NCBI GenBank assembly: GCA_944323785.1
Contig: CALUTU010000009.1
Span: 1 to 64,000, forward strand
Direction: 5' to 3'
Source: an uncultured Bacteroidales bacterium
GTDB taxonomy: Bacteria; Bacteroidota; Bacteroidia; Bacteroidales; UBA932
Length of the DNA: 64,000 nt
Made by a program: the position numbers and the translations under genes. The notes below the pieces were generated by a model. That model saw only the letters and a program-made list of their open reading frames with translations, was not told the DNA's origin and searched no databases. Below, piece after piece: positions 7,541-60,146 of the stretch. Position 1 is the stretch's first letter. The number at the start of each line of letters is the position of its first letter.

Positions 7541-8236
7541 ATGGAAGGAACTTCCGAAAAAGTGCTTCTGCACTCCTGCTGCGCCCCCTGCTCGGCCGCC
7601 ATTCTCGAATGGATGGGGCTGAACGGCTATGAACCGACCATCCTCTTCTACAACCCCAACATTTTCCCGGAGGAGGAATACCTCAAGCGGAAAACCGAGA
7701 TAGTACGGTATGCGCATAAGATCGGAGTGGCGATAACGGACCTGGACGGGGACAATGCGGAAGGCTGTATTATACAGGAATGGGTATCAGGCCAGAAAAT
7801 CACAGGCAATGCAGCAGCACAACAAGGATGTACCGGAGAGTTCTGGGAGCGACAGCACGCACAGTGGCTAAAATGTACTGCCGGGATGGAGGGCGAGCCG
7901 GAACGGGGCCGGCGATGTCTGGCCTGCTTCAGGCACCGGCTCTGCGTTGCGGCGGACTACGCGGCCTCGCACGGATTCCCCCTGTTCACCACCACCCTCG
8001 CCTCCTCCCGCTGGAAGGACATCCGGCAGATCAACGAGGCCGGTCTCTACGCTCAGGAACAATGCGGCCGGGGCCTGACCCGCTTCTGGGACCGCAACTG
8101 GCGCAAGGGCGGCCTCTACGAACGCCGCAACATCCTCGCCCGCCAGTTCTACAACCAGCAGTACTGCGGCTGCGAGTTCAGCCTTGCCCACCGCACTGCG
8201 CCCCAAAGCAACTGCTCACATTCCGACAAACCATAA
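7541..8236 (+). CDS. queH: Epoxyqueuosine reductase QueH
   Basis: I choose the ATG at 7541 (MEGTSEKVLLHSCCAPC) over a TTG at 7529, giving 231 residues. QueH (formerly DUF208) reduces epoxyqueuosine to queuosine in tRNA, replacing the unrelated QueG. The expected cysteines are present: Cys13, Cys14 and Cys17 in HSCCAPC, a CLAC pair near the middle, and CGC near the C-terminus, which bind an iron-sulfur cluster and extra iron in characterised QueH. The motif YNPNIFPEEEYLKRK also fits. The stop codon falls inside the 5' arm of palindromic element A. Confidence 0.9.
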   Translation: MEGTSEKVLLHSCCAPCSAAILEWMGLNGYEPTILFYNPNIFPEEEYLKRKTEIVRYAHKIGVAITDLDGDNAEGCIIQEWVSGQKITGNAAAQQGCTGEFWERQHAQWLKCTAGMEGEPERGRRCLACFRHRLCVAADYAASHGFPLFTTTLASSRWKDIRQINEAGLYAQEQCGRGLTRFWDRNWRKGGLYERRNILARQFYNQQYCGCEFSLAHRTAPQSNCSHSDKP

Positions 8237-8386
8237 AGCACCTGACATAGGACTATCTACCACATTATCAATTAATTGCACGCAGACTAGTTGCTCTATG
8301 CCCTGAAAAAACAAGCCATAGAGCAACCCGATAATCAGCACCCACCTGATTACAAGCACATTATCCAGACACCCCTTGCTTTATGG
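8231..8386 (+). repeat. Palindromic structured element, copy A
   Basis: Outer arms CCATAAAGCA (8231-8240) and TGCTTTATGG (8377-8386) are perfect inverted repeats. Exactly in the middle is a hairpin with 16-nt arms (GTTGCTCTATGCCCTG at 8290-8305, CAAGCCATAGAGCAAC at 8312-8327) and an AAAAAA loop. The single-stranded flanks are 49 nt on each side. It shares this geometry with copies at 29379-29530 and 59989-60146. The 5' arm overlaps the queH stop and the 3' arm lies inside the last codons of the convergent gene at 8361. Confidence 0.75.
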
Positions 8387-8852
8387 TCAACAGCAGAGTA
8401 CGACTACTGACGATATAGGCCCGGCCATTGGAGAGCCTGATTAAACACAGGTCTTTTAAATTTGTGGCGAAAAGAGTATACCAGCCCAAAGAGTCGCTCT
8501 GCCAACGGCCCCAATAACCGAACGGACCGCCGCTGCCCACCCGGAACGAGTTCAGGACGACACCGGAAGAGACTTCCTCAACCCTGACGATATCGCTGCG
8601 GTTGATACGCAGGCGGCCAACCGGGCGGCACAGTTGGATCTGTCGGTCCGTCACGATGATACGCAACGGAGTCCAAAGGGCACAGACTGACACCACAGCG
8701 GCTATCACCCAACATACTATACCCGCAGCCGGCTCTCCATTCCGCCACTCTGCAATACCTTCTGCTGCCAGAATGACCATAAGTGCTACGAAAACCACAG
8801 TCCACGCCACGGCACTCCTGCTCCACCTCATCCGTATATTCCTTTCATTCAT
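8361..8852 (-). CDS. Membrane protein with PH-like domain, uncharacterised
   Basis: I choose the ATG at 8852 (MNERNIRMRWSRSAVAWTV), giving 163 residues. Upstream in-frame codons run through the promoter. Two hydrophobic segments (about residues 12-31 and 42-61) precede a beta-rich part (PLRIIVTDRQIQLCRPVGRL, then IVRVEEVSSG and a final strand IVSSRTLLLTI) that resembles the bacterial PH-domain (bPH) fold of small Bacteroidota membrane proteins. The last residues, TIKQGVSG and the stop, are encoded by the 3' arm region of palindromic element A, so the native C-terminus may have been replaced. Function unknown. Confidence 0.6.
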   Translation of the reverse strand: MNERNIRMRWSRSAVAWTVVFVALMVILAAEGIAEWRNGEPAAGIVCWVIAAVVSVCALWTPLRIIVTDRQIQLCRPVGRLRINRSDIVRVEEVSSGVVLNSFRVGSGGPFGYWGRWQSDSLGWYTLFATNLKDLCLIRLSNGRAYIVSSRTLLLTIKQGVSG

Positions 8853-8878
8853 AACCATTTTACTTATTCTAAAACAGA

Positions 8879-8907
8879 CAAATATATGGTTAATTTTCAT
8901 ATCTTTG
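8879..8907. promoter_or_regulatory. Divergent promoter pair
   Basis: TATATTTG on the minus strand (8886-8879) serves the PH-like gene, and TATCTTTG on the plus strand (8900-8907) serves the metallopeptidase. The two -7 boxes are only 13 bp apart, so the polymerases would compete. Clear -33 TTTG boxes are not visible. Confidence 0.55.
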
Positions 8908-8935
8908 TATGCGTAATGGCTAAACACTGCGCAAT

Positions 8936-10990
8936 ATGATGAAACGGATACCTACTGTCATGCTGGCCGCGGCAACGATGATTATGAGCGGCTGTAACGG
9001 AAACAATAACGGCAATCAACAGAAGACCATGAGCAATATTTCGGAAGAGACCGTCGGCAGGACGGTGCAGGCTATCACGGAGAAATGCCCGGAAGCCGAC
9101 AAGGCCCTGGTGCAGAAAGGAGTGACACAGGCAGCTGCCCTGTGGAGGGCCGAGGACGGCACCGAAACGGAGTTCGAGCAGTTCGCAACGGAGAGCTACG
9201 CTGCGACTCCCGAGGACCGCAAAGTACTGTTTGACAAGCTGTCGGAGGCATTCGAGACCCTTTACGGAACATCCAACCAGGTAGCGGTCAGACTGCAGAA
9301 GCCCCTCCATCTGACCGGGCCGGAGCCTACGGAGATAGACTACATCCTCGGGGCGTTCGATCCCTACTCCCACCTGTCGGACGACCTGTTCGCCAACAAG
9401 ACGGCATTTGTCACCATTCTCAATTTCCCCTTCTACACCCTCGAGGAGAAGAATACCCTCGGCAAGGACTGGAACCGCCTCGAATGGGCCTACGCCCGCA
9501 TGGGGGACGCCTTTACCATCAGGGTACCGGCCAAGGTGAAGTCGGAATACTCCCAGGTGCTAAGTGCATCGGAGAACTACATAGCCTCCTACAATATCAT
9601 GATGGGACATCTGCTCACTGAGGACGGCCGCCGCCTCTTCCCGGAGGACATGATACTGCTCTCGCACTGGAACCTTCGCGACGAGCTCAAGAGTAACTAC
9701 GCTGACGTCCCTAACGCCAACGAGAAGCAGGAGATGATCTATCAGGTGATGCTGCGCATTGTGGATCAAAGTATTCCGAAAGACGTGGTGAATAATCCGG
9801 AATACGACTGGGCCCCGTACTCCAACAAGACCTGGAAGGACGGCAAGGAAGTGCAGCTCCAACCCGAGACTGACGTGCGCTACTCCCATATCCTCAACAC
9901 TTTCCACGTAGAGGAGCAGATAGACCGCTACAGCCCGCAGCTTCCGACCGGCATCGCCCGCAACTTCGAGGAGGGGATGGAGGTGTCCGCCGCTGACATA
10001 GAGCAGCTTTTCATCCGGCTGATCTCATCCGACGAGGTAAAGGAAGTGGCCGCGCTCATCAAGGAGCGTCTGGGCCGCGAGCTCAGGCCCTACGACATAT
10101 GGTACGACGGATTCAAAAGCCGTACTGCCATGTCCGAGGACGAACTGACAAAGATGACCCAGAAGAAATACCCCGACGCACAGGCATTTGCCAAGGACAT
10201 GCCGAGAATGCTGAGGTATCTCGGATTCCCTGCGCATGACGCGAAATACATAGCTGAGCGCATCGTCGTCGAGCCGGCCCGTGGCTCAGGACACGCCTGG
10301 GGCGCACAGGGACGCTGGGAGCCCGCCCGTCTGCGTACACGCATCGGAGACAAGGGCATGGACTATAAGGGCTACAACATCGCCGTACACGAGTTCGGAC
10401 ACAATGTGGAGCAGACCCTCGACCTCTACGACATCGACTACTACATGCTGAACGGGGTGCCCAACACCGCTTTCACGGAGGCCTTGGCCTTCATCTTCCA
10501 GAAACGCGACCTGGAGCTTTTAGGCTTTGACTACAGGATGGACGACAACACCACCCTGGATATCTTCTGGGGCGCCTACGAGATTATGGGCGTGGCCCTG
10601 ACCGACATGTACACCTGGCAGTGGCTCTACGCCCACCCGGAAGCCACGGCATCTGAATTGCGCGACGCGGTGGTATCCATCGCCAAGGACGTATGGAACA
10701 AGTACTACGCCCCTGTCCTCGGCACTCCCGACTGTCCCCTGCTGGCAGTCTACTCCCACATGGTCAACTCCCCGATGTACCTGCCCAACTACCCCTTCGG
10801 GCACATCATCGAATACCAGCTTGAGAACCATCTGGCCCAGTGCCGCAACAGGCTGGAATTCGCCTCGGAGCTCCGCCGCATCTACACCCTCGGCCGTCTG
10901 ACTCCCCAGATATGGATGCAGCAGGCCGTCGGCTCCGAAGTCAGCGTAGACCCGCTCCTCGAAGCTGTCGGCACCATCGTCAGGAAATAA
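8936..10990 (+). CDS. Lipoprotein zinc metallopeptidase (HEFGH), unassigned family
   Basis: The 684-residue protein begins with an SPII signal (lipobox MSGC, Cys20) and a short N/Q-rich linker. Near residue 485 it carries HEFGH, followed about 25 residues later by FTEALAF, a pattern of a gluzincin active site (two His and a downstream Glu). The preceding segment RTRIGDKGMDYKGYNIAVHE is M3/M32-like in feel, but the protein as a whole is not one I can place in a named MEROPS family. A periplasmic or surface peptidase or oligopeptidase role is inferred. It is monocistronic, with a terminator right after the stop. Confidence 0.7.
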   Translation: MMKRIPTVMLAAATMIMSGCNGNNNGNQQKTMSNISEETVGRTVQAITEKCPEADKALVQKGVTQAAALWRAEDGTETEFEQFATESYAATPEDRKVLFDKLSEAFETLYGTSNQVAVRLQKPLHLTGPEPTEIDYILGAFDPYSHLSDDLFANKTAFVTILNFPFYTLEEKNTLGKDWNRLEWAYARMGDAFTIRVPAKVKSEYSQVLSASENYIASYNIMMGHLLTEDGRRLFPEDMILLSHWNLRDELKSNYADVPNANEKQEMIYQVMLRIVDQSIPKDVVNNPEYDWAPYSNKTWKDGKEVQLQPETDVRYSHILNTFHVEEQIDRYSPQLPTGIARNFEEGMEVSAADIEQLFIRLISSDEVKEVAALIKERLGRELRPYDIWYDGFKSRTAMSEDELTKMTQKKYPDAQAFAKDMPRMLRYLGFPAHDAKYIAERIVVEPARGSGHAWGAQGRWEPARLRTRIGDKGMDYKGYNIAVHEFGHNVEQTLDLYDIDYYMLNGVPNTAFTEALAFIFQKRDLELLGFDYRMDDNTTLDIFWGAYEIMGVALTDMYTWQWLYAHPEATASELRDAVVSIAKDVWNKYYAPVLGTPDCPLLAVYSHMVNSPMYLPNYPFGHIIEYQLENHLAQCRNRLEFASELRRIYTLGRLTPQIWMQQAVGSEVSVDPLLEAVGTIVRK

Positions 10991-11002
10991 CAGGAAATAA
11001 TG

Positions 11003-11035
11003 AAGCCCGCCATTACTCTCTGCAGTGGCGGGCTT
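11003..11035. terminator. Bidirectional terminator
   Basis: Arms AAGCCCGCCA and TGGCGGGCTT form a perfect 10-bp stem between the metallopeptidase stop (10990) and the convergent gene ending at 11013, which it overlaps. Confidence 0.8.
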
Positions 11036-11447
11036 TGAGATTTAAAATCAGAAACTTACTCTTTTTCCGGTCCTCTGCGGTGTATTTCCTTTCAAGGACG
11101 AATGAGACCAAAAGGCCTATGCCTGCGAAGAGGAATGTCGCACCGAAATAAAGAACCTGCACATCATCATTGTACCAATTCTTGTCAGGCAACATTCCAT
11201 CCTTTATAAAGAAAGCCACCAGCAGACCGAGCGCCGCACCGACGAGCATAAGGCCCCAGCGCAGAGGCGCGTACTTGTTCGTAGCCACGGCCCCGAACCA
11301 TCTGTTCAGGTCTATCTGTCCGTTCTTCTGAGGGTCGAGGGTCTCGATTTTCTGGGCCACGATGAGCCTCTCCTTGCGGTGAATAAGGTTTTCGAGGATG
11401 CGATAGACAAAGTAGAAAATTATCGCACAAATAATTGCTCCTTCCAT
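11013..11447 (-). CDS. DUF6249-like small membrane protein
   Basis: The 144-residue protein has three predicted membrane segments (about 4-20, 63-82, 99-120) and a basic C-terminus. Layout and sequence feel (LVAFFIKDG, FLFAGIGLLVSFVLE) resemble DUF6249 proteins, which in Bacteroidota usually sit in operons with an ECF sigma factor. Consistent with this, an ECF-type promoter on the minus strand (11488-11515) reads into it and a decayed sigma gene lies divergently. The C-terminal codons overlap the terminator hairpin. Molecular function unknown. Confidence 0.65.
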   Translation of the reverse strand: MEGAIICAIIFYFVYRILENLIHRKERLIVAQKIETLDPQKNGQIDLNRWFGAVATNKYAPLRWGLMLVGAALGLLVAFFIKDGMLPDKNWYNDDVQVLYFGATFLFAGIGLLVSFVLERKYTAEDRKKSKFLILNLKARHCRE

Positions 11448-11487
11448 AACTTTAATTTTAAAAGGTTTTTAATGTTCCGTTTGCATC

Positions 11488-11515
11488 TTTGACGCACGAA
11501 ATGGAAAAGGTTACA
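11488..11515 (-). promoter_or_regulatory. ECF-type promoter toward the DUF6249-like gene
   Basis: On the minus strand TGTAACC (11515-11509), 14 bases, CGTCAAA (11494-11488). This matches the classic ECF layout (AAC in the -35, CGTC in the -10). Confidence 0.6.
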
Positions 11516-11559
11516 CCGGCGGACAGAAAATTTTGAAAAATTCAATTTTTAAATTTCGA

Positions 11560-11588
11560 TGTAACCTTTTATTTTTACCAGCGTCTTA
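11560..11588 (+). promoter_or_regulatory. ECF-type promoter toward the broken sigma gene
   Basis: TGTAACC (11560-11566), 15 bases, CGTCTTA (11582-11588). With the opposite site it forms a perfect 11-bp inverted repeat (AAAAGGTTACA at 11505-11515, TGTAACCTTTT at 11560-11570), as expected of divergent promoters read by one autoregulated sigma factor. Confidence 0.65.
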
Positions 11589-11611
11589 TATGCAGAAAGA
11601 ACACAGCACCT

Positions 11612-11677
11612 ATGACAAGAGCCGAGGAGAGCGCACTCATATTCAAGATACTGGACGGGGACAAGGAAATAGCCTAA
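11612..11677 (+). pseudogene. Truncated ECF sigma factor gene (N-terminal 21 codons)
   Basis: The ATG 24 bases after the ECF -10 opens a frame reading MTRAEESALIFKILDGDKE, the typical start of an ECF sigma (LIxKILxGDxEAF), and then stops after two more codons. The stop overlaps the stop of the lipoprotein gene ending at 11674 on the other strand. The rest of the sigma gene is absent from the window. It appears cut at exactly the point where the lipoprotein operon begins, implying insertion or deletion there. Confidence 0.6.
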
Positions 11678-13299
11678 TCGACTTTAAATAGCGTAATGTC
11701 GGACACCCCAAGATAGTGAATCATCCAGCCCGTATCAGTACGCGTAAACAAAGAAGGATAGTAACCCTGATAATCGCATCTGATAGTCATCATGTTAGCC
11801 GAGGGATGTAGCACGGTTAGCGGAGTATCCAGACGCCGGTATTCATCATTTGCTCCCATCATGAAGACATCCCCCAGTTCAGACCATCCATACAGGATAT
11901 CCGTACCGTCCGCCTGTATACGTATCTGTTCCTGCTCGTTTATAGTCATTATCAGCTTTGGACCGAACTTATGATAAGCTTCCTCTTCCGAAAAACCCTC
12001 TTCAATCAACCGCATAGGACTGTAATACGGAATACCTTCAGTACCGTATTCCGGCAGGCAAGTGTATCCGTCAAGCTTGCAGACAAGCTGATTCCACATA
12101 CGGTAGTCGTAGCTCCCTTCCGAAGTGGCTATCGTCATGGTAAACTCACTCCGTGCCATGACACCGTTGCCGTCCATGAATGTCTGCACACCCTGCCACT
12201 CTCCTACAAGTTCCTCGAAAAGTCTTGAATCTATCAGTTCCACACCCGTGACAGCCTCCGCCGTCTCCAGAAAGACATTCTCATAGAGGTCAAAACCGAC
12301 AACACAAAGTGTATATGAGGTTCCGGGCTGCAGATTGATCCAGTCCTCCTCAGTTATCCCCTGAAGCATACCAGACTGCTGTACCTCAAGCAGTTCCTTT
12401 ATAAATGTCTCCTCACCTACCTTTTCCAGTTCCTCCATAGCCTGGGATGTCTCCAGCATCACCTGATAATAACACCCGGTACCTGCATCCGGAGTACACA
12501 CCGTATGCAGCAAGTCTGGCTGGGTGTCAGTGAATTCTATGCCCACAGACCCATCGACGGACATGTCGGGAAAGATTTTGGAAAAATCCGTCCACTCTAT
12601 TGCTCCCGTCGAACCGTCATCATATACGGCAAAGGCGTAAGCCACATATTCCGTATCATAAGACACATCAAAAACTGTCTCTGACTCACCCCAGTATCTT
12701 ATATTTTCCTCTAAGAGTATTTCCGGGAACGTGGTTCCAAGATCGGCGGCTATATCCTTCAGTTCTTCTATTTTCCACTCCACTACATCCTGAGGTTCCT
12801 GAAAAGAGTCCCACCGCTCACGGCTCATGAAATAATAATAGTAAGGCAGCTCACTATCCTGCGGAACAACTTTGCAGTAAAAACTGTCGCCAGTCCTGCG
12901 AAACGAAAACGCGAACATTCCGGCCTCCTCCGTGGAAAGTTCTATATCAGACCATGGAGAGTCACCGTATCTGCCACCATCACCCAAGGCCCGGACGCTT
13001 ATCCGATAACGCGTTCCAGACTCCAGCCCGGTGACAGTCCATGAGACAGAGTCTGTCACCGTCTCCTCTCCTTCATTCACTCTGCAGGCATACCCTGACG
13101 CATTGTCCACAGCACTCCAGCCCACACTGATGGATGTTGTTGTGACATCTCCCGGGACAAGCACAGGCGGAGCCAGCTGCTCCTGCGTTCCGGATGAAGG
13201 GTTCTCATCTGCACCATCATCTATGCCGCCGTCGGCGCATCCATACAGGATGAACGCGCCGATGCAGCATATATAAGACAACAACCGTTCTGTTCTCAT
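11674..13299 (-). CDS. Surface lipoprotein with Fn3 domain and envelope repeat modules
   Basis: The 541-residue protein has an SPII lipobox (ILYGC, Cys21), a fibronectin type III domain (about 42-112: PPVLVPGDVTTTSISVGW, ASGYACRV, GTRYRISVRA), and two of the roughly 115-residue modules found in the other lipoproteins here (about 118-235 and 240-345, ending in TEYVAYAFAVYDDG and TSYTLCVVGFDL). A distinct C-terminal domain begins LVGEWQGVQTFMDGNG. It is the last gene of the seven-gene operon and overlaps the upstream gene by 4 bases. Role unknown; probably surface adhesion or ligand binding (inference). Confidence 0.75.
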   Translation of the reverse strand: MRTERLLSYICCIGAFILYGCADGGIDDGADENPSSGTQEQLAPPVLVPGDVTTTSISVGWSAVDNASGYACRVNEGEETVTDSVSWTVTGLESGTRYRISVRALGDGGRYGDSPWSDIELSTEEAGMFAFSFRRTGDSFYCKVVPQDSELPYYYYFMSRERWDSFQEPQDVVEWKIEELKDIAADLGTTFPEILLEENIRYWGESETVFDVSYDTEYVAYAFAVYDDGSTGAIEWTDFSKIFPDMSVDGSVGIEFTDTQPDLLHTVCTPDAGTGCYYQVMLETSQAMEELEKVGEETFIKELLEVQQSGMLQGITEEDWINLQPGTSYTLCVVGFDLYENVFLETAEAVTGVELIDSRLFEELVGEWQGVQTFMDGNGVMARSEFTMTIATSEGSYDYRMWNQLVCKLDGYTCLPEYGTEGIPYYSPMRLIEEGFSEEEAYHKFGPKLIMTINEQEQIRIQADGTDILYGWSELGDVFMMGANDEYRRLDTPLTVLHPSANMMTIRCDYQGYYPSLFTRTDTGWMIHYLGVSDITLFKVD

Positions 13300-16091: not shown

Positions 16092-16116
16092 ATTAATTGA
16101 AAGTGTTTATATTCAG

Positions 16117-18291: not shown

Positions 18292-18302
18292 CTCCTCAGT
18301 TT

Positions 18303-19874: not shown

Positions 19875-19882
19875 AGCGCTAT

Positions 19883-29378: not shown

Positions 29379-29530
29379 CATGAGCACACTCTATATTTAT
29401 AACACATTGACCAAAAGCAACTTAGAGAAGCACCCTGATCTTTTCGGCCTGTTTTTTCAGGTCGAGAAGAACGCAACCTTCCCGTATATCATTGTATCAT
29501 AGACGATTACAAAATATGGGTGTGCTCCTG
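29379..29530 (-). repeat. Palindromic structured element, copy C
   Basis: Read on the minus strand. Outer arms CAGGAGCACA (29530-29521) and TGTGCTCATG (29388-29379) pair at 9 of 10 positions. The central hairpin has 15-nt arms (GTTCTTCTCGACCTG, 29472-29458, and CAGGCCGAAAAGATC, 29451-29437) around AAAAAA. The flanks are 48 nt on each side. It has the same geometry and the same CCTG-A6-CAGG apex as copies A and B, in reverse orientation. Confidence 0.65.
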
Positions 29531-29637
29531 ATTACGGTTGTTCAAAAGGCTCCCGGGCACGATGGGCGAAAAGGTATGTTTTGGGAAGTGCGGCCACAGT
29601 TATCCTTCTTAGTAATTAAATCTGTAAAAATTCTATT

Positions 29638-38011: not shown

Positions 38012-39112
38012 TTAAATCTCCGATTCACACACCAGCATCGAGACATTGGAGATTATCTGGCCGGTATAGACATCTATCGCTACCGCGAAAGCTGTGAACT
38101 CCGATGCCATCGGTATATCTATGGGAGTACTTGTGGCCTCTCCCTGGTAGGACATTTCCATAAAGTAATCATATACCGTTCCACCGCCAAGAATCGGAAG
38201 CAGATATATTATCTCGTCCAGCATCTTCTGATACGACTCGGCTATCGCCTCCGGAGTATTGGTGCCATTGTATACATCCATCAGATAGCGCACCTCATCG
38301 TTATTGGGCACAGCCGATATGGTCAGCGTCCATTCTTCGGCATTCTGCTCTACGGACAACTTGAAGACGACATCCTCGGGTGTGACAGGAAGAGTCCTCG
38401 CCTGCGCATAATATATATCCGTCAGGATATTGCCGGCAGCATCCATTCCGTAGGCATACACGATATAATCGGAATCAGCACTCAGGTCCTCCGCAGAATA
38501 CGTCCCCTCTCCTTGCTTGAGAACATATTTCTCAAGAAACTCCTCGTATGACAGATTGCGTTTTGCCGCCTGCTCCTGGAAATACTCAATGTCATACGCT
38601 ATATACTCCTCATACGAGTCAAAAGAGTCCCATGTAGCCTTATCCACAGCCATACTTACATACGTAAGCTCAGGATCCGGCGGAACCACTTTCCAAACCA
38701 CCATACCGGTAGTACACTCGCTTTCCTGCACGGATATGGTGAATGAGGCATAGGGCTCCTGCGTCACGGTAAATTCAAGAGCCTGTCCCTCATAGGTCAG
38801 AACAATATCCGCAGTTCTGGACTCATTGCCACTGTTGACGGACACGGTGAAATAGACCTCTCCATACGCGCTTGTCGTATTGACCTCCTCAATCCAGTCA
38901 ACATTTGGACTGACTTCAGCGGCCACGGATGCCCCGGTAGGGCTGGCTATGTCGTAATAAATAGTATGGATACCGGCCTCAGGTCCGACCGTCATCTGCT
39001 GGTCTGACTTCGGACTGAACCCTACATTGTCGCGACCGTTGTCGTCATTGTTACACGAAGTGAACGCTGCTGCAAATGCAGAAATAAGAATAAAGACAAT
39101 TTGTTTTTTCAT
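38012..39112 (-). CDS. BACON-domain surface lipoprotein
   Basis: The 366-residue protein has lipobox FTSC (Cys20), a BACON domain (about 38-122: VGPEAGIHTIYYDIASP, NVDWIEEV, ESRTADIVLTYEGQ) and two repeat modules (about 124-245 with SDYIVYAYGMDAAGN, and 248-366 with SEFTAFAVAIDVYTG). It resembles the N-terminal 370 residues of the protein at 44362-45957 (shared KATWDSFDSYEEYI / KTTWDSFDSFDEYF), so they are paralogues under the same operator type. It is monocistronic, convergent with the citrulline hydrolase-like gene, and its promoter faces the 3' end of the regulator gene. Confidence 0.78.
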   Translation of the reverse strand: MKKQIVFILISAFAAAFTSCNNDDNGRDNVGFSPKSDQQMTVGPEAGIHTIYYDIASPTGASVAAEVSPNVDWIEEVNTTSAYGEVYFTVSVNSGNESRTADIVLTYEGQALEFTVTQEPYASFTISVQESECTTGMVVWKVVPPDPELTYVSMAVDKATWDSFDSYEEYIAYDIEYFQEQAAKRNLSYEEFLEKYVLKQGEGTYSAEDLSADSDYIVYAYGMDAAGNILTDIYYAQARTLPVTPEDVVFKLSVEQNAEEWTLTISAVPNNDEVRYLMDVYNGTNTPEAIAESYQKMLDEIIYLLPILGGGTVYDYFMEMSYQGEATSTPIDIPMASEFTAFAVAIDVYTGQIISNVSMLVCESEI

Positions 39113-39139
39113 ATCGGATGCGTTTTAATTTGTTCAACG

Positions 39140-39171
39140 CAAAACTATCCGATATATATCTGATTATCAAA
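39140..39171 (-). promoter_or_regulatory. Promoter of the 38012-39112 lipoprotein gene
   Basis: On the minus strand TTTG (39171-39168), 20 bases, TAGTTTTG (39147-39140), an exact TAnnTTTG match. Confidence 0.7.
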
Positions 39172-39182
39172 TATTAATAATA

Positions 39183-39208
39183 ACAAAACGACAAATTTGC
39201 CATTTTGT
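39183..39208 (-). promoter_or_regulatory. Operator with core GACAAATTTGCC, 18 bp upstream of -33
   Basis: The core (39190-39201) is centred exactly inside a dyad with arms ACAAAA (39183-39188) and TTTTGT (39203-39208). The distance from core to the -33 TTTG is 18 bp (39172-39189). Core, spacing and central dyad position are identical at 46033-46064, the promoter of the other nearby lipoprotein operon. The upstream position suggests an activator. Confidence 0.65.
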
Positions 39209-50870: not shown

Positions 50871-50899
50871 ACCGACAGTTTTTCAGAGTGTTGATGTTT

Positions 50900-53800: not shown

Positions 53801-54547
53801 GGTGTAGCGCAGACGCTTGGGGTCGTCAAAGTCGGAGTTGGTGCTGATGCAGATCAGACGGTCGTGTGCCGGGCCGTCCTCCTTGCGCACGAAATGCACG
53901 TCATTGGTGGCCACCACCTTGATGCCCAATTTCTCCGCAATCCGGAATATGACCTCATTGACCTCCTGCTGATGGGCGAAAGTGCTCTTCTCCGCCCCCG
54001 GCACATCGGTCTCGTGCCGCTGCACCTCTAAATAATAGTCCTCCCCGAAGATGGACCTGTACCATGCCGCCACCTCCTCCGCCTTGGCCGTGTCGCCCTC
54101 CATGATGGCCTGAGGCACCTCGCCGCCGAGACAGGCCGAGCAGCAGACGATGCCCTCATGGTACTGCTCTATCAGCTCGTGGTCGATACGCGGCTTGTAG
54201 TAGAAACCCTCGATGTAGGCCTTCGAGGAGAGCTTGATGAGATTGTGGTAGCCCTGCATGTTCTTGGCCAGCATGATCAGGTGGTAGGAGCTCTGGTCCT
54301 CACGGCCCTTCCGGTCGAAACGGCTTGCACCTGCCACATAGAACTCGCAGCCCACGATAGGCTTCAGCGGGGCATTCTTCTTAGCCACTGTATCGAGAAA
54401 CTCCTTCACGCCGAACATGTTCCCATGGTCAGTTATCGCCAGGGCCGGCTGGCCGTTCGCCACAGCAGTATCGATCAGGTCCCCTATCTTGGACTGACCG
54501 TCCAGAATCGAATACTGGGTATGGACATGCAGGTGGGCAAATGACAT
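50900..54547 (-). CDS. dnaE: DNA polymerase III alpha subunit (DnaE1 type)
   Basis: The 1215-residue protein opens with the PHP domain (FAHLHVHTQYSILDGQSKIG), followed by the C-family polymerase core with the catalytic aspartates in MPDIDIDFDDEGR, the GPGRGSAAGSVVAYCL motif, the tandem HhH region (FGMAGIKGIGIGAVN) and a C-terminal OB fold (YIAGLVSGVDIRPKSNGVGT). It is the replicative polymerase. A TATCTTTG -7 box lies at 54579-54572 on the minus strand. No frameshift or inactivating change is visible. Confidence 0.98.
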   Translation of the reverse strand: MSFAHLHVHTQYSILDGQSKIGDLIDTAVANGQPALAITDHGNMFGVKEFLDTVAKKNAPLKPIVGCEFYVAGASRFDRKGREDQSSYHLIMLAKNMQGYHNLIKLSSKAYIEGFYYKPRIDHELIEQYHEGIVCCSACLGGEVPQAIMEGDTAKAEEVAAWYRSIFGEDYYLEVQRHETDVPGAEKSTFAHQQEVNEVIFRIAEKLGIKVVATNDVHFVRKEDGPAHDRLICISTNSDFDDPKRLRYTQQEYLKSTEEMSAIFADHPEVISNTLEIVDKCEVLNLNHDPILPIFPLPEGFTDSNDYLHFLTYEGAHRRYGEDIPEATRERIDFELATIKKMGFPDYFLIVQDFIKAARNMGVWVGPGRGSAAGSVVAYCLTITNIDPIKYDLLFERFLNPDRISMPDIDIDFDDEGRYRVFKYVEDKYGKDHVSHVITFGTMATKSVIRDVGRIQKLSLDTTDRLAKLVPRKVTVQKDKEIDDPDHPGQKKKVTESKDEDPTIKLCLEKVPEFKEAFNSGDQLVHDTLLYAERLEGTVRNTGVHACATIIGRDDLTNFIPLSTAKDKETGKDILVSQFEGSLIESAGMLKMDFLGLKTLTILKDAVENIRQSRGEELDINSIPIDDKETYELFSRGDTVGVFQFESDGMQKWLMELQPSRFEDLIAMNALYRPGPMDYIPDFVARKHGRSKIEYDLPDMEEYLHDTYGVTVYQEQVMLLSQKLAGFTKGKADKLRKAMGKKQIKVMAELKDEFFAGGLEHGHPEAILNKIWNDWEAFASYAFNKSHATCYAWVGYQTGYLKAHYRAEYMAAVLSNNLNNIDEITKFMDDCRRNGMKILGPDVNESYTKFTVNKDGNIRFGMAGIKGIGIGAVNSIIEVRKAGGPFKDIFNFMERIPYTSVNKKGVEALAYSGAFDSFPEINRGSFAMDAGKGETCLDLLLRYGSLYQKTAESMKNSLFGGADEVETVRPQLPVLHELDQIEMLKKEKELVGMYISAHPLDRFRFEVENFTTMSIPEWSAYVDEVSSSKEREAFEKDQYIAGLVSGVDIRPKSNGVGTICKVTVEDFKGSVTFTLFDKDYEAFSGFLRVHEFLLLRVYVAPRFNKVEDKNARGGKRFEISGGFPKIRAISLLANVRESMIKEIVIDVPLEIVNSEFIRSLKKSVRHNKGKSMLTLNVHDDKVNAEFFSRKYSVTAADDFLSFLRLNGLHYRINKS

Positions 54548-54599
54548 ATATTATCCTTGATTTCTTCCCCACAAAGATAACACTATTTCCTCCGCCCGC

Positions 54600-54652
54600 C
54601 TATTGAAAAGCGTAGTTTTTCATAGCATTTTCTATTGAAAAGTTTAACTTTG
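54600..54652 (+). promoter_or_regulatory. Promoter and direct-repeat operator of the mntA-hepT module
   Basis: Two identical 11-mers, CTATTGAAAAG (54600-54610 and 54632-54642), are 32 bp apart, three helical turns. The second abuts the -7 box TAACTTTG (54645-54652). This fits cooperative autorepression by the antitoxin or toxin-antitoxin complex (inference). Confidence 0.5.
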
Positions 54653-54671
54653 TAAGTGAATCTATTTAAGA

Positions 54672-54968
54672 ATGAAAACAAAAGAAGAATATATATCACT
54701 TTTATCCTCCCACACCGATGAGTTGAGATCTGACTATGGAGTAAAATCCATGAGGATCTTCGGCTCCGTATCCCGTGACGAGCACGGTGAGGACAGCGAC
54801 ATCGATGTATGCGTAGATATGGCTCCCAAAGCTTATCTGGTAGCGGCATTAAAGAGGTTTTTGGAGAATCTCCTTCAATGTTCCGTGGACATAGTCCGGA
54901 TACACAGGCATATAAACCCTTTCTTACTTAAAGAGATCGAACATGACGGAATCTTCATATTCAAATAA
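54672..54968 (+). CDS. mntA: MntA-like minimal nucleotidyltransferase (antitoxin)
   Basis: The 98-residue protein has the nucleotidyltransferase signature GS-x10-DxD: Gly31-Ser32 and Asp43/Asp45 in GSVSRDEHGEDSDIDV, with a third acidic residue in CSVDIVRIHR. MntA antitoxins transfer AMP to a tyrosine of the partner HepT ribonuclease and so neutralise it. It overlaps the HEPN gene by 26 bases, the usual tight coupling. Confidence 0.88.
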   Translation: MKTKEEYISLLSSHTDELRSDYGVKSMRIFGSVSRDEHGEDSDIDVCVDMAPKAYLVAALKRFLENLLQCSVDIVRIHRHINPFLLKEIEHDGIFIFK

Positions 54969-55329
54969 CCGCGTACGCAGTCTCTTTCTGCAAATCAAAG
55001 ACGCAATCCTTCAATTAATTGAATGGAACAAGGATGTCTGTTCTCCTGAAGATTACTATTCATCACCGGATGGAATGAAAAATCTCGCAGCCAGCTGCAT
55101 GCTCATCGAAGCTATCGGCGAAGGCATCAAGCAGGTTGACAAACTCACACAGTCCAAGTTGCTGTGCGAACGTCCGGAAATTCCATGGATTGATGTAATA
55201 GGCATACGGAATCACATAGCACACGGATATTTTGATATAGACGGAGATATCGTTTTCGACATCGTCAAAAATAATCTCAACGATCTTTTGGCAGCTGTCG
55301 ATTACTTCTTATCTGCCGATATTCGGTAA
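54943..55329 (+). CDS. hepT: HepT-like HEPN ribonuclease (toxin)
   Basis: The 128-residue helical protein carries the HEPN catalytic motif RX4H as RNHIAH (Arg89-His94), and the tyrosine of RX4HXY, the known site of AMPylation by MntA, is present (Tyr96 in HIAHGYF). It overlaps mntA by 26 bases. The gene ends 5 bases before the convergent U32 peptidase stop. Such modules act as type VII toxin-antitoxin systems, with possible phage-defence or maintenance roles. Confidence 0.87.
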   Translation: MTESSYSNNRVRSLFLQIKDAILQLIEWNKDVCSPEDYYSSPDGMKNLAASCMLIEAIGEGIKQVDKLTQSKLLCERPEIPWIDVIGIRNHIAHGYFDIDGDIVFDIVKNNLNDLLAAVDYFLSADIR

Positions 55330-55334
55330 ACGCA

Positions 55335-56576
55335 TTATTTGTGCTCGAAGATGTAGACTTTGTCGGCACGGCGGACACGGGCAGGGACTGGGATGGAGCA
55401 GGCGACACCCTGGGCCGCACTCTGAGCTGGTATGAGGTCTACGCGGATCTCCGGGATATCCATCTCGACAACTCCGGTAGTAGGGCCGATGATGAGGATG
55501 TGCTGGCCGACTTTCAGCGGGGCCGCTTCGACGAGAATCTCCGCCACTCCCAGATTGGAAAAGTAATTGTTGACCTTGCCGGCATAGACCTTCTTCATGG
55601 TCGCGCTGCTGCCGTAGACACTGCTCCATTCTCCCAGACGGGCGCCCTGGTAGTAGCCGTCCCAGAAGCCCCGGTTAAACACCTGCGAGAGCTGGTCCCG
55701 GAACGAGGCCCCGAACTCCGGAGTGAACGTACCGTTCTCCACGGCATCGGCGGCGGCGCGGTACGCACTGACCACCTTCTGCACATACTCCGCCGGACGG
55801 GCACGCCCCTCGATCTTGAACACCGAAACGCCGGCCGCCGCCATTTTATCCAAGAACTCTATGGTACACAAGTCCTTGGGAGACATGATATACTTGTTGT
55901 CTATCTCCAGTTCGTAACCGGTCTCCAGGTCCGTGACCCTGTACCCCCGGCGGCAGAGCTGGAGGCAGGAGCCGCGGTTGGCCGACTTGCCGTTCTCGTG
56001 CAGGCTCAGATAGCATTTGCCCGAGACAGCCATGCACAAAGCCCCGTGGCAGAACATCTCGATCTGCACGGGACGGCCCGAAGGACCTGTGATATGCTCC
56101 GATGCTATCCTGTCGCTGATTGCCCGCACCTGGTCCAGATTGAGTTCCCTGGCCAGAACCATCACGTCCGCATACTGCGAATAAAAGCGGACCGCTTCCG
56201 TGTTGGAGATATTGAGCTGGGTGGAGATATGCACTTCCATACCGATACGGCGGGCGTACTCTATAGTCGTGATATCCGAAGCTATGACGGCCGTAACTCC
56301 CGCCTCCTTCGCTGCATCAAGAGTGCTGTATGCCTTGGGGACATCCTCGTCATACAGGATGATATTGAGAGCCAGATAGGTCTTTACGTCATTCTCCGAA
56401 CAGTAGCGGACTATCTCCGGAAGGTCGGAGAGAGTAAAATTGTTCGCGCTGTGCGAGCGCATGTTCAGGTCCTCGACCCCGAAATACACCGAATCAACCC
56501 CGGCCTGCACGGCAGCTGTAAGGGCCTCGAAGCATCCGGCCGGGGCCATTATCTCAAGTCTGTGTCCACTGCTCAT
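55335..56576 (-). CDS. U32 peptidase-family protein (tRNA/rRNA hydroxylation type)
   Basis: The 413-residue protein is a U32-family member: N-terminal APAGCFEALTAAVQAGVDSV, STQLNISNTEAVRFY, and the cysteine-rich segment FCHGALCMAVSGKCYLSLH ... NRGSCLQLCRRGY that binds an iron-sulfur cluster in this family. Characterised relatives TrhP and RlhA use prephenate in RNA C5-hydroxylation. This one is closest in length and layout to TrhP, but I cannot separate the two. It overlaps the polyprenyl synthetase gene by 4 bases (ATGA). Confidence 0.87.
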   Translation of the reverse strand: MSSGHRLEIMAPAGCFEALTAAVQAGVDSVYFGVEDLNMRSHSANNFTLSDLPEIVRYCSENDVKTYLALNIILYDEDVPKAYSTLDAAKEAGVTAVIASDITTIEYARRIGMEVHISTQLNISNTEAVRFYSQYADVMVLARELNLDQVRAISDRIASEHITGPSGRPVQIEMFCHGALCMAVSGKCYLSLHENGKSANRGSCLQLCRRGYRVTDLETGYELEIDNKYIMSPKDLCTIEFLDKMAAAGVSVFKIEGRARPAEYVQKVVSAYRAAADAVENGTFTPEFGASFRDQLSQVFNRGFWDGYYQGARLGEWSSVYGSSATMKKVYAGKVNNYFSNLGVAEILVEAAPLKVGQHILIIGPTTGVVEMDIPEIRVDLIPAQSAAQGVACSIPVPARVRRADKVYIFEHK

Positions 56577-57550
56577 TTGCGGCGGTAGGTTATCTGGGTT
56601 GCGAACTCCTCGAGCAGGGAGAGCTTCTGCGTTCCGAGGGATAGTCCCTCGACAGTCTCCATTGCCCTATGGAAATAGTGCTCTATGGCCTTCTCGGCAT
56701 TGTCCTTGACTCCAAGCTCCGTAAACAGCTGCTGAGCCGCAGCGATCTTCTCCGCCGCACGGTCCTCACCCATCCGGAATATCTGCTCGAAACGCGACCT
56801 CTGCTCTCCGACAGCCAGACGGGCAGCCTCAATGTAGAGCCACGTCTTCTTGTTATTCATGATATCCCCTCCGATATTCTTGCCGAAGACAGCGGGATCC
56901 CCGAAAGTGTCCAGATAGTCATCCGTTATCTGGAAAGCCAGACCCAGATCATAGCCGTACTGATACAGGGCCTCGGCCGACTTCACGTCAGCTCCGCCGA
57001 GCACCGCACCCATCCTGGCCGCACCGGCTATCAGGGCCGAGGTCTTCAGTCCTATCATCATGATATAGTCGTCCATAGTGACTACCGGCATCGTCTCATA
57101 ATTCATGTCGTACTGCTGGCCCTCACACACTTTCCTGGCGGTATCACTGAATATCTCCAGCACAGCTCGCAGTTTGTCCGAAGGTGCCTTGCTTACATAC
57201 TCATAGGCCTGGATTGACATCACGTCTCCGGAAAGGATAGCGATATTCTCGTTCCATTTCTTATAGACGGTGAGCTGCCCTCGCCTGAGGTCCGCCCTGT
57301 CCATGATATCATCGTGTATCAGAGTAAATGAATGGAATATCTCCAGGCCGAGGGCGGGATACACCTGCGAGGCATTTATCTCGTCCGAAAAGAGCGAGCA
57401 TGCCAGCAGGGCCAGACGCGGACGGATCCGCTTGCCGCCGATGGACATGGTGTATTCTATAGGTCTGTAAAGTTCCTCCGGCTCCCCTTTCAGGTCCAGG
57501 GTGCCAATCCCGTTGGATACTATCTTGTCAATTTCAGCTAAGGTGTACAT
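56573..57550 (-). CDS. Polyprenyl (farnesyl/geranylgeranyl-type) diphosphate synthase
   Basis: The 325-residue all-helical prenyltransferase has the first aspartate-rich motif HDDIMDRADLRRG (Asp80, Asp81, Asp84) and the second FQITDDYLD. An aromatic Phe lies five residues ahead of the first motif, which in this family favours shorter (C15-C20) products, though product length needs assay. It supplies isoprenoid precursors. It is translationally coupled to the U32 gene and divergent from rsgA. Confidence 0.9.
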   Translation of the reverse strand: MYTLAEIDKIVSNGIGTLDLKGEPEELYRPIEYTMSIGGKRIRPRLALLACSLFSDEINASQVYPALGLEIFHSFTLIHDDIMDRADLRRGQLTVYKKWNENIAILSGDVMSIQAYEYVSKAPSDKLRAVLEIFSDTARKVCEGQQYDMNYETMPVVTMDDYIMMIGLKTSALIAGAARMGAVLGGADVKSAEALYQYGYDLGLAFQITDDYLDTFGDPAVFGKNIGGDIMNNKKTWLYIEAARLAVGEQRSRFEQIFRMGEDRAAEKIAAAQQLFTELGVKDNAEKAIEHYFHRAMETVEGLSLGTQKLSLLEEFATQITYRRK

Positions 57551-57618
57551 AGTTTTTCAATCGTGCAAATCATGCAAATATAGCGAAAATTTGTATCTTC
57601 GCGCCACAAAAGAAGCAC

Positions 57619-58590
57619 ATGGGAGAGAACAGAATACAGACCGGGACCGCAACCGTGGTCAAGAACACCGGCAGCCACTATTTGCTGTCGGAGCTGCCTG
57701 AATGGCGGCCGTTCAATGCGGTAGTAAGAGGCAAGTTGCGGCTGAGCGGCTCGACCGCCACCAACCCCGTGGCTGTAGGCGACCGCGTGGAGTATTCTGT
57801 ACCGGTAAGCAGCGACGGCACATCGGCGGACGAAGCCACCATCACCAAAGTACTGCCGAGAAAAAACTACGTCATCCGCAAGTCCACCAACCTCTCCCGC
57901 CAGTGCCACATTCTGGCGTCCAACATCGATATGGCCTACCTCATAGTCACGCTTGACTGTCCCGAGACCAAGTGGCCCTTCATCGACCGCTTTCTCGTCA
58001 CCTGCGAGGCCTATAAAGTACCCGTCACCATCATCCTCAACAAGACAGACCTCTATAGGGACAACGAGGAACTGGCTGCAAAGAGCGAGCTCTTTCACAG
58101 CATCTACACCGACGCCGGATACTCGATAATGGACATCTCTGCCCTCACAGGCGAAGGTATTGACGACCTGCGGGTAAAATGCAACGCGGGCGGCATCTCC
58201 ATGTTCAGCGGAGTATCCGGAGTGGGCAAATCCTCGCTTATCAAGGCAATAGACCCGTCTCTCGACCCCAGGACATCGGAGATATCGGACAAATACCGGC
58301 AGGGAAAGCACACCACCACCTTCTACGAGATATATCCCGTTCACGGAGGCGGGTTCATCATCGACACCCCGGGAATCAGGGGTTTCGGCCTGGTGGACAT
58401 CGAGCCGGAAGAAATTTCCACCTATTTCCCGGAAATGCTCCGCGTCGCCGACAACTGCCGCTACAAGCCCTGTACCCACACACACGAGCCCGGGTGCGCG
58501 GTAATCCAGGCCGTTGAGGAGGGCACAATATCGCCCGAACGCTATACATCCTATCTCGGAATGTTGGACGAGGAAGGGAAATACCGGTAA
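57619..58590 (+). CDS. rsgA: Ribosome small subunit-dependent GTPase A
   Basis: The 323-residue protein has an OB-fold N-terminus, circularly permuted GTPase motifs (NKTDLYRD as G4 ahead of the P-loop SGVSGVGKSSLI, then DTPGIRGFG), and a C-terminal zinc knuckle (CRYKPCTHTHEPGC). RsgA is a late 30S assembly GTPase that checks the decoding centre. The start at 57619 (MGENRIQTGTATVVKNTG) follows a TATCTTCG box by about 20 bases. Confidence 0.95.
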   Translation: MGENRIQTGTATVVKNTGSHYLLSELPEWRPFNAVVRGKLRLSGSTATNPVAVGDRVEYSVPVSSDGTSADEATITKVLPRKNYVIRKSTNLSRQCHILASNIDMAYLIVTLDCPETKWPFIDRFLVTCEAYKVPVTIILNKTDLYRDNEELAAKSELFHSIYTDAGYSIMDISALTGEGIDDLRVKCNAGGISMFSGVSGVGKSSLIKAIDPSLDPRTSEISDKYRQGKHTTTFYEIYPVHGGGFIIDTPGIRGFGLVDIEPEEISTYFPEMLRVADNCRYKPCTHTHEPGCAVIQAVEEGTISPERYTSYLGMLDEEGKYR

Positions 58591-58621
58591 GCCGCATGCC
58601 CGCCGCAGAGATTTTCAGGAA

Positions 58622-59956
58622 ATGAGAAAAGCAGAAAAACGCATAGCTTCCCCGTCTATGAACGGCAGGATTCTCAGGCTGGCAGTGCCGAGCATCCTGG
58701 CCAATATCACCGTTCCTCTGGTCGGAATGGTGGACATCGCCGTATCAGGCCGTCTAGGCAACGTGGCCGCTATCGGCGCCATCGCAGTAGGCTCCATGCT
58801 CTTCGACCTGCTGTACTGGAACTTCGGTTTCCTGCGGGTCGGCACGGGAGGCCTGACCGCCCAGGCCTACGGCCGCAAGGACATGGCCGGAGCCATAAGG
58901 TATTTCGTCCAGGGAGAATCGACTGCCCTGTTCTCGGCTACTTTCCTGATAGCCATCCAGTGGCTGTTCGTCGAGGCGGCATTTATGTTCATAGACTGCT
59001 CGGGAGAAGTACAGGAACTGGCCCGCAAATATTTCTTCATCAGGATATGGGACGCTCCGGCAACCCTGTCGCTGATGGTCTTCAAGGGCTGGTTCATAGG
59101 CATGCAGAACACCGTCTTTCCGATGATAGTGGACATGACCGTCAACATAGTCAACCTCTCGGCCAGCATCTGGCTGGGCCTGCACACTCCGCTCGGATTC
59201 GCAGGAGTGGCCCTCGGTACGGTCATTGCACAGTACACAGGCCTCATCCTGGCCTCTGTACTGATGCTCATCCACTACCGCAAGCTGTTCAGATACGTCA
59301 ACATAAAGCGGGACGTGAAATTCAAGTATATGAAATCATTCTACGTCCTCAACGCCAACCTCTTTCTGCGTTCACTCTGTTTCATGCTCATTTACTGCGG
59401 ATTCACCTCACTTGCCGCCCACTACGGCGACGTACAGCTGGCCGTAAGCACCATCATCATGAAGCTGCTGATGCTGTACTCCTACATCCTGGACGGATTC
59501 GCATACGCCGGCGAGGCACTTACGGGACGCTACATCGGAGCCCAGGACAAGCCGTCACTGCACAAGGCAGTCCGCCTGCTATTCATCTGGACTGCAGGAC
59601 TGGCAGTTATCTCGACCGTGGCCTACGGCATCGGCGGACAGTGGATGGTCAGTATGATGACCACGGAGACCGATGTCATCGATGCATCAAGACCTTACAT
59701 GATATGGCTGGTGATCATGCCGGCATTCAGCTGCCTGGCCTTCATGTGGGACGGTATCTTCATCGGAGCAACAGCGGCCAGAGCTATCCGCAACGGCATG
59801 ATCTGGGCCTGCGCCTCCTTCTACGTCTGCTATTTCGCCTTCAGGGGCGTCATGGGCATCCAGGCCCTCTACATGGCCTACTTCGCCCACCTCATCGCCC
59901 GCGACGTCTACATGACCGCCACAGCCCGCCGCCACGTCTTCTCCCGCATCCATTAA
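58622..59956 (+). CDS. MATE-family efflux transporter (DinF-like)
   Basis: The ATG at 58622 (MRKAEKRIASPSMNGRILRL) gives 444 residues with about 12 membrane helices. A longer in-frame reading overlaps rsgA and is unlikely. The family signatures LAVPSILANITVPLVGMVDI, with a membrane Asp, and the two-fold repeat (YVLNANLFLRSLCFMLIYCG) fit the DinF/prokaryotic MATE branch, which exports organic cations or other compounds in exchange for H+ or Na+. Substrate unknown. It lies 31 bases after rsgA. Palindromic element B follows. Confidence 0.9.
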   Translation: MRKAEKRIASPSMNGRILRLAVPSILANITVPLVGMVDIAVSGRLGNVAAIGAIAVGSMLFDLLYWNFGFLRVGTGGLTAQAYGRKDMAGAIRYFVQGESTALFSATFLIAIQWLFVEAAFMFIDCSGEVQELARKYFFIRIWDAPATLSLMVFKGWFIGMQNTVFPMIVDMTVNIVNLSASIWLGLHTPLGFAGVALGTVIAQYTGLILASVLMLIHYRKLFRYVNIKRDVKFKYMKSFYVLNANLFLRSLCFMLIYCGFTSLAAHYGDVQLAVSTIIMKLLMLYSYILDGFAYAGEALTGRYIGAQDKPSLHKAVRLLFIWTAGLAVISTVAYGIGGQWMVSMMTTETDVIDASRPYMIWLVIMPAFSCLAFMWDGIFIGATAARAIRNGMIWACASFYVCYFAFRGVMGIQALYMAYFAHLIARDVYMTATARRHVFSRIH

Positions 59957-59988
59957 TGCGGAGAAGCGTCATGCCACATGACAATCGC

Positions 59989-60146
59989 CCCATGAAGCAT
60001 CCGTGCCAGCCACAATCCACTAACAATCACCACTTTATCTAAAAAGCAGATGCTGCATGGCCTGAAAAAACAGGGCATACAGCATCCGTTTATTAAGCAA
60101 CTCTCTTATTATCAACCCATTATACTCAACAAGACTGCTTCATGGG
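59989..60146 (+). repeat. Palindromic structured element, copy B
   Basis: Outer arms CCCATGAAGCA (59989-59999) and TGCTTCATGGG (60136-60146) are perfect inverted repeats. The central hairpin has 16-nt arms (GATGCTGCATGGCCTG, 60049-60064; CAGGGCATACAGCATC, 60071-60086) around AAAAAA. Flanks are 49 nt on both sides, exactly as in copy A. The 3' flank matches copy A at about 25 of 49 positions without gaps. It lies between convergent genes. Confidence 0.75.

Follow-up and report, generated by a model that had tools for sequence, protein, structure and literature searches.

Three repeat elements of about 156 bp lie in a 64,000-nucleotide stretch of DNA (the window) from an uncultured Bacteroidales bacterium (assembly GCA_944323785.1, contig CALUTU010000009.1, positions 1 to 64,000). 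They are real members of a dispersed family of non-coding repeats. Further copies occur in the home genome and in congeneric genomes, and genes resembling the REP-associated tyrosine transposases (RAYTs; REP, repetitive extragenic palindromic sequence) are flanked by such elements. We can say with good confidence that the elements are non-autonomous REP- or REPIN-like repeats of an atypical, long RAYT system. The original prediction, made from the letters of the window alone, had named a mobile element of this kind as one of two possibilities, and the analysis supports it.

That prediction placed the elements, here called copies A, B and C, at 8231-8386, 29379-29530 and 59989-60146, and their coordinates, lengths and symmetry were right. 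Among the outer-arm sequences that it gave, those of copies B and C had been exchanged: the arms are CAGGAGCACA/TGTGCTCATG at 29379-29530 and CCCATGAAGCA/TGCTTCATGGG at 59989-60146. The mid-arm motif of each unit of an element resembles WATCARNNNNTTR, the consensus of integration host factor (IHF). The features of the three copies are as follows, with matches to this consensus counted out of nine.

8231..8386, no strand: copy A, full element, two 71-bp units (8231-8301 and 8316-8386) with a 14-bp linker (8302-8315)
8231..8240, + strand: copy A, left outer arm, CCATAAAGCA
8377..8386, + strand: copy A, right outer arm, TGCTTTATGG
8291..8326, + strand: copy A, inner hairpin with 15-nt arms, A6 loop at 8306-8311, mismatches C.C and C.A
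8266..8278, + strand: copy A, IHF-like site, 9/9, TATCAATTAATTG, inward-facing
8339..8351, - strand: copy A, IHF-like site, 8/9, AATCAGGTGGGTG, inward-facing
29379..29532, no strand: copy B, sister-family element, plus-strand outer arms CATGAGCACA / TGTGCTCCTG
29448..29461, - strand: copy B, core palindrome CCTGAAAAAACAGG
29487..29499, + strand: copy B, weak IHF-like site, 7/9
29400..29412, - strand: copy B, weak IHF-like site, 7/9
59990..60145, no strand: copy C, full element, two 71-bp units (59990-60060 and 60075-60145) with a 14-bp linker (60061-60074)
59990..59999, + strand: copy C, left outer arm, CCATGAAGCA
60136..60145, + strand: copy C, right outer arm, TGCTTCATGG
60050..60085, + strand: copy C, inner hairpin, A6 loop at 60065-60070, mismatches C.A and G.G
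60110..60122, + strand: copy C, IHF-like site, 9/9, TATCAACCCATTA, outward-facing
60025..60037, + strand: copy C, IHF-like site, 8/9, AATCACCACTTTA
60098..60110, - strand: copy C, IHF-like site, 8/9, AATAAGAGAGTTG

The left outer arm of copy A contains the TAA that ends the QueH reading frame (7529-8236). The hairpin tip of this copy reads CCTG-AAAAAA-CAAG, and the CAGG that had been proposed for it is not there. A single mismatch had been claimed for the inner stems of copies A and B. Mismatches do exist, but they are more numerous, with two in A, two in C and four among the 16 positions checked in B.

In the window, CCTGAAAAAACAGG with up to two mismatches occurs 3 times against 0.29 expected, and 0 of 100 shuffles reached 3. 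A strict scan for a hairpin with outer arms found copy A alone (0 in 10 resampled sequences), and a relaxed scan for a central hairpin with symmetric outer arms found 2, which are copies A and C (3 in total in 20 resampled sequences). Copy B fails both scans. A covariance model of the family (R1), built from 22 family copies, matches copy C with an E-value of 1.2e-24, copy A with 2.8e-24 and copy B with 2.8e-7; copies A and C are in the training set of this model and copy B is not.

The home genome (G000; 1.97 Mb in 36 contigs, 87% complete) holds five exact occurrences of CCTGAAAAAACARG. It also holds 37 occurrences of CCTGAAAAAACAGG at up to two mismatches, against 15 for a reversed control, so most of the 37 are not family copies. 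Scanning named genomes for the pattern yielded 39 stretches. On reading, 33 of these are family copies, some of them interrupted by a contig end or an insertion, and six are unrelated (L048, L058, L061, L065, L068 and L071). Species of Candidatus Coprenecus and uncultured Bacteroidales are the hosts of the 33. R1, at E up to 0.01, has matches in at least 15 of the 19 congeneric genomes; the matches listed for the home genome (15 of 16) mark 8 places. The covariance-model search suggested with the prediction did yield further copies. Many places match on both strands because the element is nearly palindromic.

A typical ungapped copy is 156 bp long (71 + 14 + 71) and is centred on the 14-bp palindrome CCTGAAAAAACAGG. 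Its parts follow in the order arm, mid-arm motif, arm, palindrome, arm, motif, arm. All four arms are versions of one motif, CCAT-NNN-GCA, inverted within each unit. In direct orientation the two units have an identity of 0.26 to 0.49 across their inner 47 positions (means after shuffling 0.25 to 0.30), with p below 0.05 in 17 of 25 copies. In inverted orientation it is 0.19 to 0.45, and reaches or exceeds the direct value in 4 of the 25. CTGATT occupies positions 31-36 in the consensus of either unit, while TAA and TTA are mirror-placed. Since CTGATT is direct but TAA/TTA is mirrored, the units could have arisen by direct or by inverted duplication.

Among 76 model hits the neighbouring genes are in tandem in 35 cases, divergent in 18, convergent in 12 and undetermined in 11. 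The mixed gene contexts and the location of the A6 in the loop led to the rejection of a bidirectional terminator. Two other ideas were also dropped. The copies had at first seemed clustered on the chromosome, with 7 of the first 9 on two contigs, but this impression faded when 24 places were known, and a viral origin found no support in viral contigs, where a 22-base core pattern gave 0 matches.

Weak R1 matches and a symmetric-dyad scan led to sister families, which have other arms with the same geometry and mid-arm motif. A second model (R2) was trained on 24 elements of both kinds, including the window's three. Under strict filters, with at most 12 candidates scored per genome, it matches 38 of 249 genomes of the taxonomic family and 9 of 25 genera at E up to 1e-5. 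Its 40 matches in the home genome (E up to 0.01) fall at 24 places.

R2 also has a sub-threshold match at 39111-39190 of the window (E 0.93), where a CTGATTATCAA motif stands next to a small hairpin. This is possibly a decayed half element, or chance. In genome G058, four loci (L246, L247, L248 and L249) carry tandem arrays of units with spacings of 84 and 168 bp; judged by the spread of model matches, the arrays span about 1.1 to 1.7 kb.

RAYT-like genes and these elements are associated. An example can be found at locus L251 (genome G033), where a reading frame with an HVH motif (1682-2533) lies directly between inverted elements at 1351-1506 and 2534-2689. Another is L270 (G016). Here an intact RAYT frame of 290 amino acids (1504-2376) lies between two elements of the window's own family (1190-1345 and 2480-2635), from which it is separated by 158 and 103 bp. 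The RAYT most like that of L270 is at L277 (78% identical; next best 55%), and a CCAT..GC element adjoins L277 too.

With the L251 frame as query, 83 matches were obtained in 17 of the 19 congeneric genomes. They include 39 close homologues (E up to 1e-34, with a gene in two pieces taken as one), all of which were examined, and 43 distant ones, of which 11 were. Elements within 800 bp were sought with R2. At E up to 0.05, they occur on both sides of 22 close RAYTs, on one side of 11 and on neither side of 6. The corresponding numbers are 18, 14 and 7 at E up to 0.01, and 8, 18 and 13 at E up to 0.001. At the distant homologues, none of the 11 examined has an element. By chance, 24 places per 1.97 Mb would put about one element in the 59.5 kb of RAYT flank. 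Three of the 55 flanking elements were in the R2 training set, two loci (L303, L305) are without a left flank, and two (L272, L287) have a short right one. By sequence and by the position of their elements, twelve of the 39 seem to form a single orthologous group, in which every RAYT is flanked on both sides; the remaining 27 divide into 10 with elements on both sides, 11 on one and 6 on none. The prediction had proposed to look for a nearby RAYT, and in congeneric genomes RAYT-like genes do lie between elements.

The RAYT-like proteins keep an NH-V/I-H motif and the tyrosine in Y-V-L/H-RNP (NHVH, YVLRNP). These motifs, and matches to NCBIfam REP_Tyr_transpos and Pfam Y1_Tnp that stay under the curated cut-offs, speak for a transposase. 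An in-frame TAG found in several RAYTs precedes the first methionine in the five loci of this sort whose translation was inspected (L271, L273, L274, L276 and L283). RAYT identity and element similarity rise together. In the 440 RAYT pairs less than 60% identical, the median best element score is 17.5 to 19.3 bits by bin. In the bins above 60%, it is 169, 88 and 284 bits (21, 20 and 47 pairs), and many of these upper pairs are orthologous loci.

The IHF-like motif recurs at fixed places. In column 121 of alignment A3, the consensus is matched at 9/9 by 17 of 29 copies, and at the mirrored place by 2 of 29; when any of four symmetric places is allowed (outward or inward), the number is 24 of 29. 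The background is 3.9e-5 per window position. Because the motif was picked after the conserved columns had been seen and the copies are related, this column test is not blind. A second count used flanks placed by RAYT position rather than by the models. In 22,780 bases at 17 RAYT loci there are 23 perfect sites, against a mean of 1.6 and a maximum of 7 for 60 permuted consensuses. At 8/9 there are 77 sites, against a permuted mean of 28.1 and a highest value of 45. Perfect sites thus number 10.1 per 10 kb in RAYT flanks and 0.78 in the window, where copies A and C have one each besides their 8/9 sites.

The spacing is kept in the sister families. With the best site of each half counted, a site scoring 8/9 or better stands +40 to +43 from the dyad centre, on one side or both, in 14 of 21 sister elements. 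In three longer ones (178-186 bp) such a site is at +53 to +57, and four others are without it.

The copies in the window appear to be old members of the family, passed on by vertical inheritance. The A locus is common to G000, G009, G012, G015 and others, and the C locus to G000, G009 and G017 among the 19. Their long vertical inheritance, and the fact that no matching RAYT was found in the home assembly, suggest that they are relics. The best reading for the elements in general is that they are now mostly inherited vertically.

Changes inside the element can be followed at orthologous loci. In G008 the A locus is reduced to a single unit (73 bp in place of 158), and the sequences on either side of it are 89% and 98% identical to those in the window; L169 and L168, too, are shortened inside the element. 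At C19:16531 the home copy has an A6 loop, and the orthologues in G012 (96% over 2.6 kb), G015 (90%) and G009 (80%) have T6. A second locus shows the same flip, with A6 in G015 and T6 in G012 (96% over 3.1 kb). Hairpin loops in chloroplast genomes are known to undergo small inversions, and the two cases here most likely arose by template switching at the hairpin.

Two further observations concern the surroundings of the elements. One subfamily (L013:1340-1783, with L012, L137, L138 and L140) is homologous over about 310-440 bp at non-orthologous loci, so that homology extends past the 156-bp element. At five places in two genomes, an insertion sequence of IS3 type, with ends TGAGGTGTACC...GGTACACCTCA, lies in or beside core arms:

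L036:1-96, IS3-type insertion
L039:1-96, IS3-type insertion
L053:1873-1968, IS3-type insertion
L206:1560-3071, IS3-type insertion with rve and HTH_21 domains
L272:2196-2357, IS3-type insertion

REPs are described as targets of insertion sequences in the available text of PMC1525189.

Several results weigh against a RAYT system of this kind. At the strict threshold of E up to 1e-5, the 39 close RAYTs split into 5 with elements on both sides, 17 with one and 17 with none. The proteins score below the curated cut-offs: NCBIfam REP_Tyr_transpos (NF047646) gives E-values of 3e-6 and 6e-8, under its 80-bit cut-off, and Pfam Y1_Tnp matches 15 of 16 members weakly at E up to 1, with 9e-5 as the best. 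A sequence search of these proteins matched no solved structure. The home assembly yielded no RAYT belonging to the arm family of the window, and elements of another family flank the one close RAYT there (contig C8). The GT[AG]G foot typical of classical REPs is not plainly there, with 5 of 61 at the outer foot (chance about 0.075 each) and 21 of 61 at the inner foot. Precise empty sites had been proposed as a check, and a comparison of flanks among the fetched loci found no clean one with a target duplication; the element-free relatives at the C locus differ by more than the element. As to the bending protein, the IHF-like sites of copy B reach only 7/9, a search of the home assembly, at 87% completeness, brought up no HU/IHF gene (PF00216), and such a gene is above the Pfam cut-off in only 12 of the 19 congeners, with one homologue each.

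In ten of these twelve congeners the distance of the PF00216 gene from a contig end is known, and it is about 1.8 to 2.7 kb (G003, G004, G007 and all of G010-G016; G006 and G018 are outside this tally). Proximity to contig ends may explain why the gene is absent from other assemblies.

A Y1_Tnp gene of the home genome (L075) was considered as the partner and rejected, having GAGAGTGTACC repeats of its own and no element. It is of a more distant RAYT type (L075:1200-2900, contig C13), and its repeats run GAGAGTGTACC..GGTACACTCTC. A repeat of similar style, GGGAAAGTG..CACTTTCCC, occurs at L251:7840-8177 (G033).

If the elements belong to a RAYT system, the RAYT would most likely nick and rejoin the hairpins as single strands, thereby seeding copies. 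An IHF/HU-type protein would bend each unit at the mid-arm motif. Such bending would let the outer and inner arms meet, both of which are CCAT-NNN-GCA in the window's family. What is shown is the association; catalysis, bending and movement today are inferences. A bolder proposal, offered here tentatively, is that a Bacteroidales branch of RAYTs swapped the single GTAG-tagged REP for a double-stranded nucleoprotein design. It would consist of two IHF/HU-bent units that gather four copies of one family-specific arm round a hairpin core, in which the arms diversify and the bend sites and spacing stay fixed. If so, the action of the RAYT would depend on a bending protein of the host.

The elements could instead be miniature inverted-repeat transposable elements (MITEs) of a DDE transposon of unidentified type. 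Their outer arms would then be terminal inverted repeats, the mid-arm sites would bind IHF as those of the Correia elements in Neisseria do, and the link to RAYTs would be secondary. A length of 156 bp, inverted ends, an IHF-like site and short deletion forms recall the Correia elements (153-157 bp, with forms of 69-73 bp, in the available text of PMC2649163), and a reach of up to about 440 bp in non-orthologous copies also suits a MITE. Yet 33 of the 39 close RAYTs have an adjoining element at R2 E up to 0.05 (32 at 0.01), no target duplication was seen, and no gene with matching ends besides the RAYTs was noticed, without a dedicated search for one. We consider a MITE unlikely.

The other possibility raised by the original prediction was a structured RNA, which here would mean long hairpins that are transcribed, kept for their fold and dispersed by a mobile process. 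Among the sister families, L150 is predicted to form one 160-nt hairpin (-79.3 kcal/mol, z -12), and in the four-sequence L165 family, with 46 predicted pairs, 9 of the 12 pairs that vary are paired in all four, mostly via G.U. In 22 copies of the window's family, arms pair in 88.3% of cells (shuffle mean 86.2; 0 of 500 shuffles as high) and the covariation score of 0.093 tops 500 of 500 shuffles (mean 0.062), with 18 cells changed on both sides against 9.7 (3 of 500 as high). In 76 hits, G.T oppositions outnumber A.C by 208 to 126 on the G/T-rich strand, the strand being picked by composition.

Because the copies are related, these shuffles overstate pairing and covariation. The raised covariation score can also be explained by related copies and by template switching, which can give palindromes paired changes. 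Pairs with a change on both sides number 3, against a shuffle mean of 3.5 (489 of 500 as high), and pairs 7/150 and 72/85 of the stem are open in 10 and 13 of the 22 copies. The exchange of A-T for G-C between outer arms, called compensatory in the prediction, turns out to be rare: the 22 copies have G.U 11 times, A-U 9 times, G-C once and another combination once. Equal flanks had also suggested selection on structure, but they follow from two units of equal length, and the 49-nt flanks pair only slightly above shuffled ones in 17 copies (mean z -0.75 and -0.63 for the two strands, range -2.53 to +1.05). An RNA with paired flanks was rejected for the window's family, as shuffled flanks fold about equally well. 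A consistent transcribed strand was not found either, the G/T-rich strand being that of the neighbour genes in 22 tandem contexts and the opposite one in 13.

The Rfam 15 covariance models found only a tRNA in the window at gathering score; with E up to 1 allowed, five loci gave a tRNA as well as two matches below threshold, outside the elements. The case for selection on structure is weaker than it had appeared. A structured RNA is unsupported for the window's family and improbable for the elements as a whole, with the sister families of single long hairpins its possible refuge. Equal flanks and 'covarying' arms need not imply an RNA fold, which is a caution for structured-RNA calls. Finally, a recombinase attachment site, with a 6-bp-centred core between bending and arm sites as in a symmetric phage attP, would share the order arm, IHF-like site, core, IHF-like site, arm, and the 6-bp centre does invert, but the many copies per genome, the association with RAYTs and the possibility of loop inversion without a recombinase make it very improbable.

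Read as REP-like repeats of RAYTs, the elements resemble several known systems. In E. coli, the RIB/RIP elements (BIME-1) have inverted palindromic units around an IHF site. The elements described here likewise have inverted palindromic units around a predicted IHF site, but their sequences are other ones and two units are joined by a conserved 14-bp palindrome. The Correia (NEMIS) elements of Neisseria, which are marked by a terminal repeat of their own and a TA target duplication, belong to other hosts and have different arms. They are about 155 bp long with inverted ends, an IHF site in the long form and short deletion forms, features that our elements, with their IHF-like sites, resemble (PMC2649163 and PMC2229807, as far as their available texts go); the mechanism that mobilises them is stated to be undetermined in the available part of PMC2649163.

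The closest relatives are described with RAYTs. According to the available text of Quentin et al. 2018 (PMC6006769), RAYT subclass 2.6, mostly from Bacteroidetes, is flanked by 'atypical secondary structures' that have further genomic copies; the GT[AG]G tag is absent from subclass 2.6 as well as from class 3. As in these groups, a Y1/HUH-type gene is flanked here by repeats with genome copies elsewhere (PMC6006769). In contrast to the 'weaker secondary structure' in that text, the present elements, mostly 146-186 bp long, are nested dyads with an IHF-like site per arm. Membership of subclass 2.6 is not claimed, since the motifs here are NHVH and YVLRNP and those given for 2.6 are NH[LIV]H and YIH[QN]NP. 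TIRtrons, in the available text of Di Nocera et al. 2013 (PMC3733652), are RAYT-like genes with long inverted repeats (TIRYT repeats). They share with our system repeats unrelated to GTAG REPs, moderately abundant families, dimers and clusters; the examples in that text come from Pseudomonas, Stenotrophomonas, Acidobacteria and a few others, and it describes them without a nested dyad or IHF site of the present kind.

The original remark that no named family has this plan holds for the sequences, which have no Rfam match, but atypical repeats at RAYT genes were already published, in 2018 for Bacteroidetes (PMC6006769) and also in PMC3733652, going by the parts of both papers available. In the literature searched, mainly open texts without supplements, no description was found of the nested-dyad plan, a bend site per arm and a spacing fixed across families. 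An element length of about 156 bp also contrasts with the hairpin of 20-40 nt of a classical GTAG REP, and the best-known RAYT work, to our knowledge, concerns GTAG REPs.

RAYTs are relatives of single-strand transposases, and their repeats are thought to shape bacterial genomes. The Bacteroidales elements form a bounded system, with fixed geometry, parallel families and a bending motif. Such a system can be used to probe how a RAYT recognizes a target other than GTAG, and whether IHF or HU plays a role in it.

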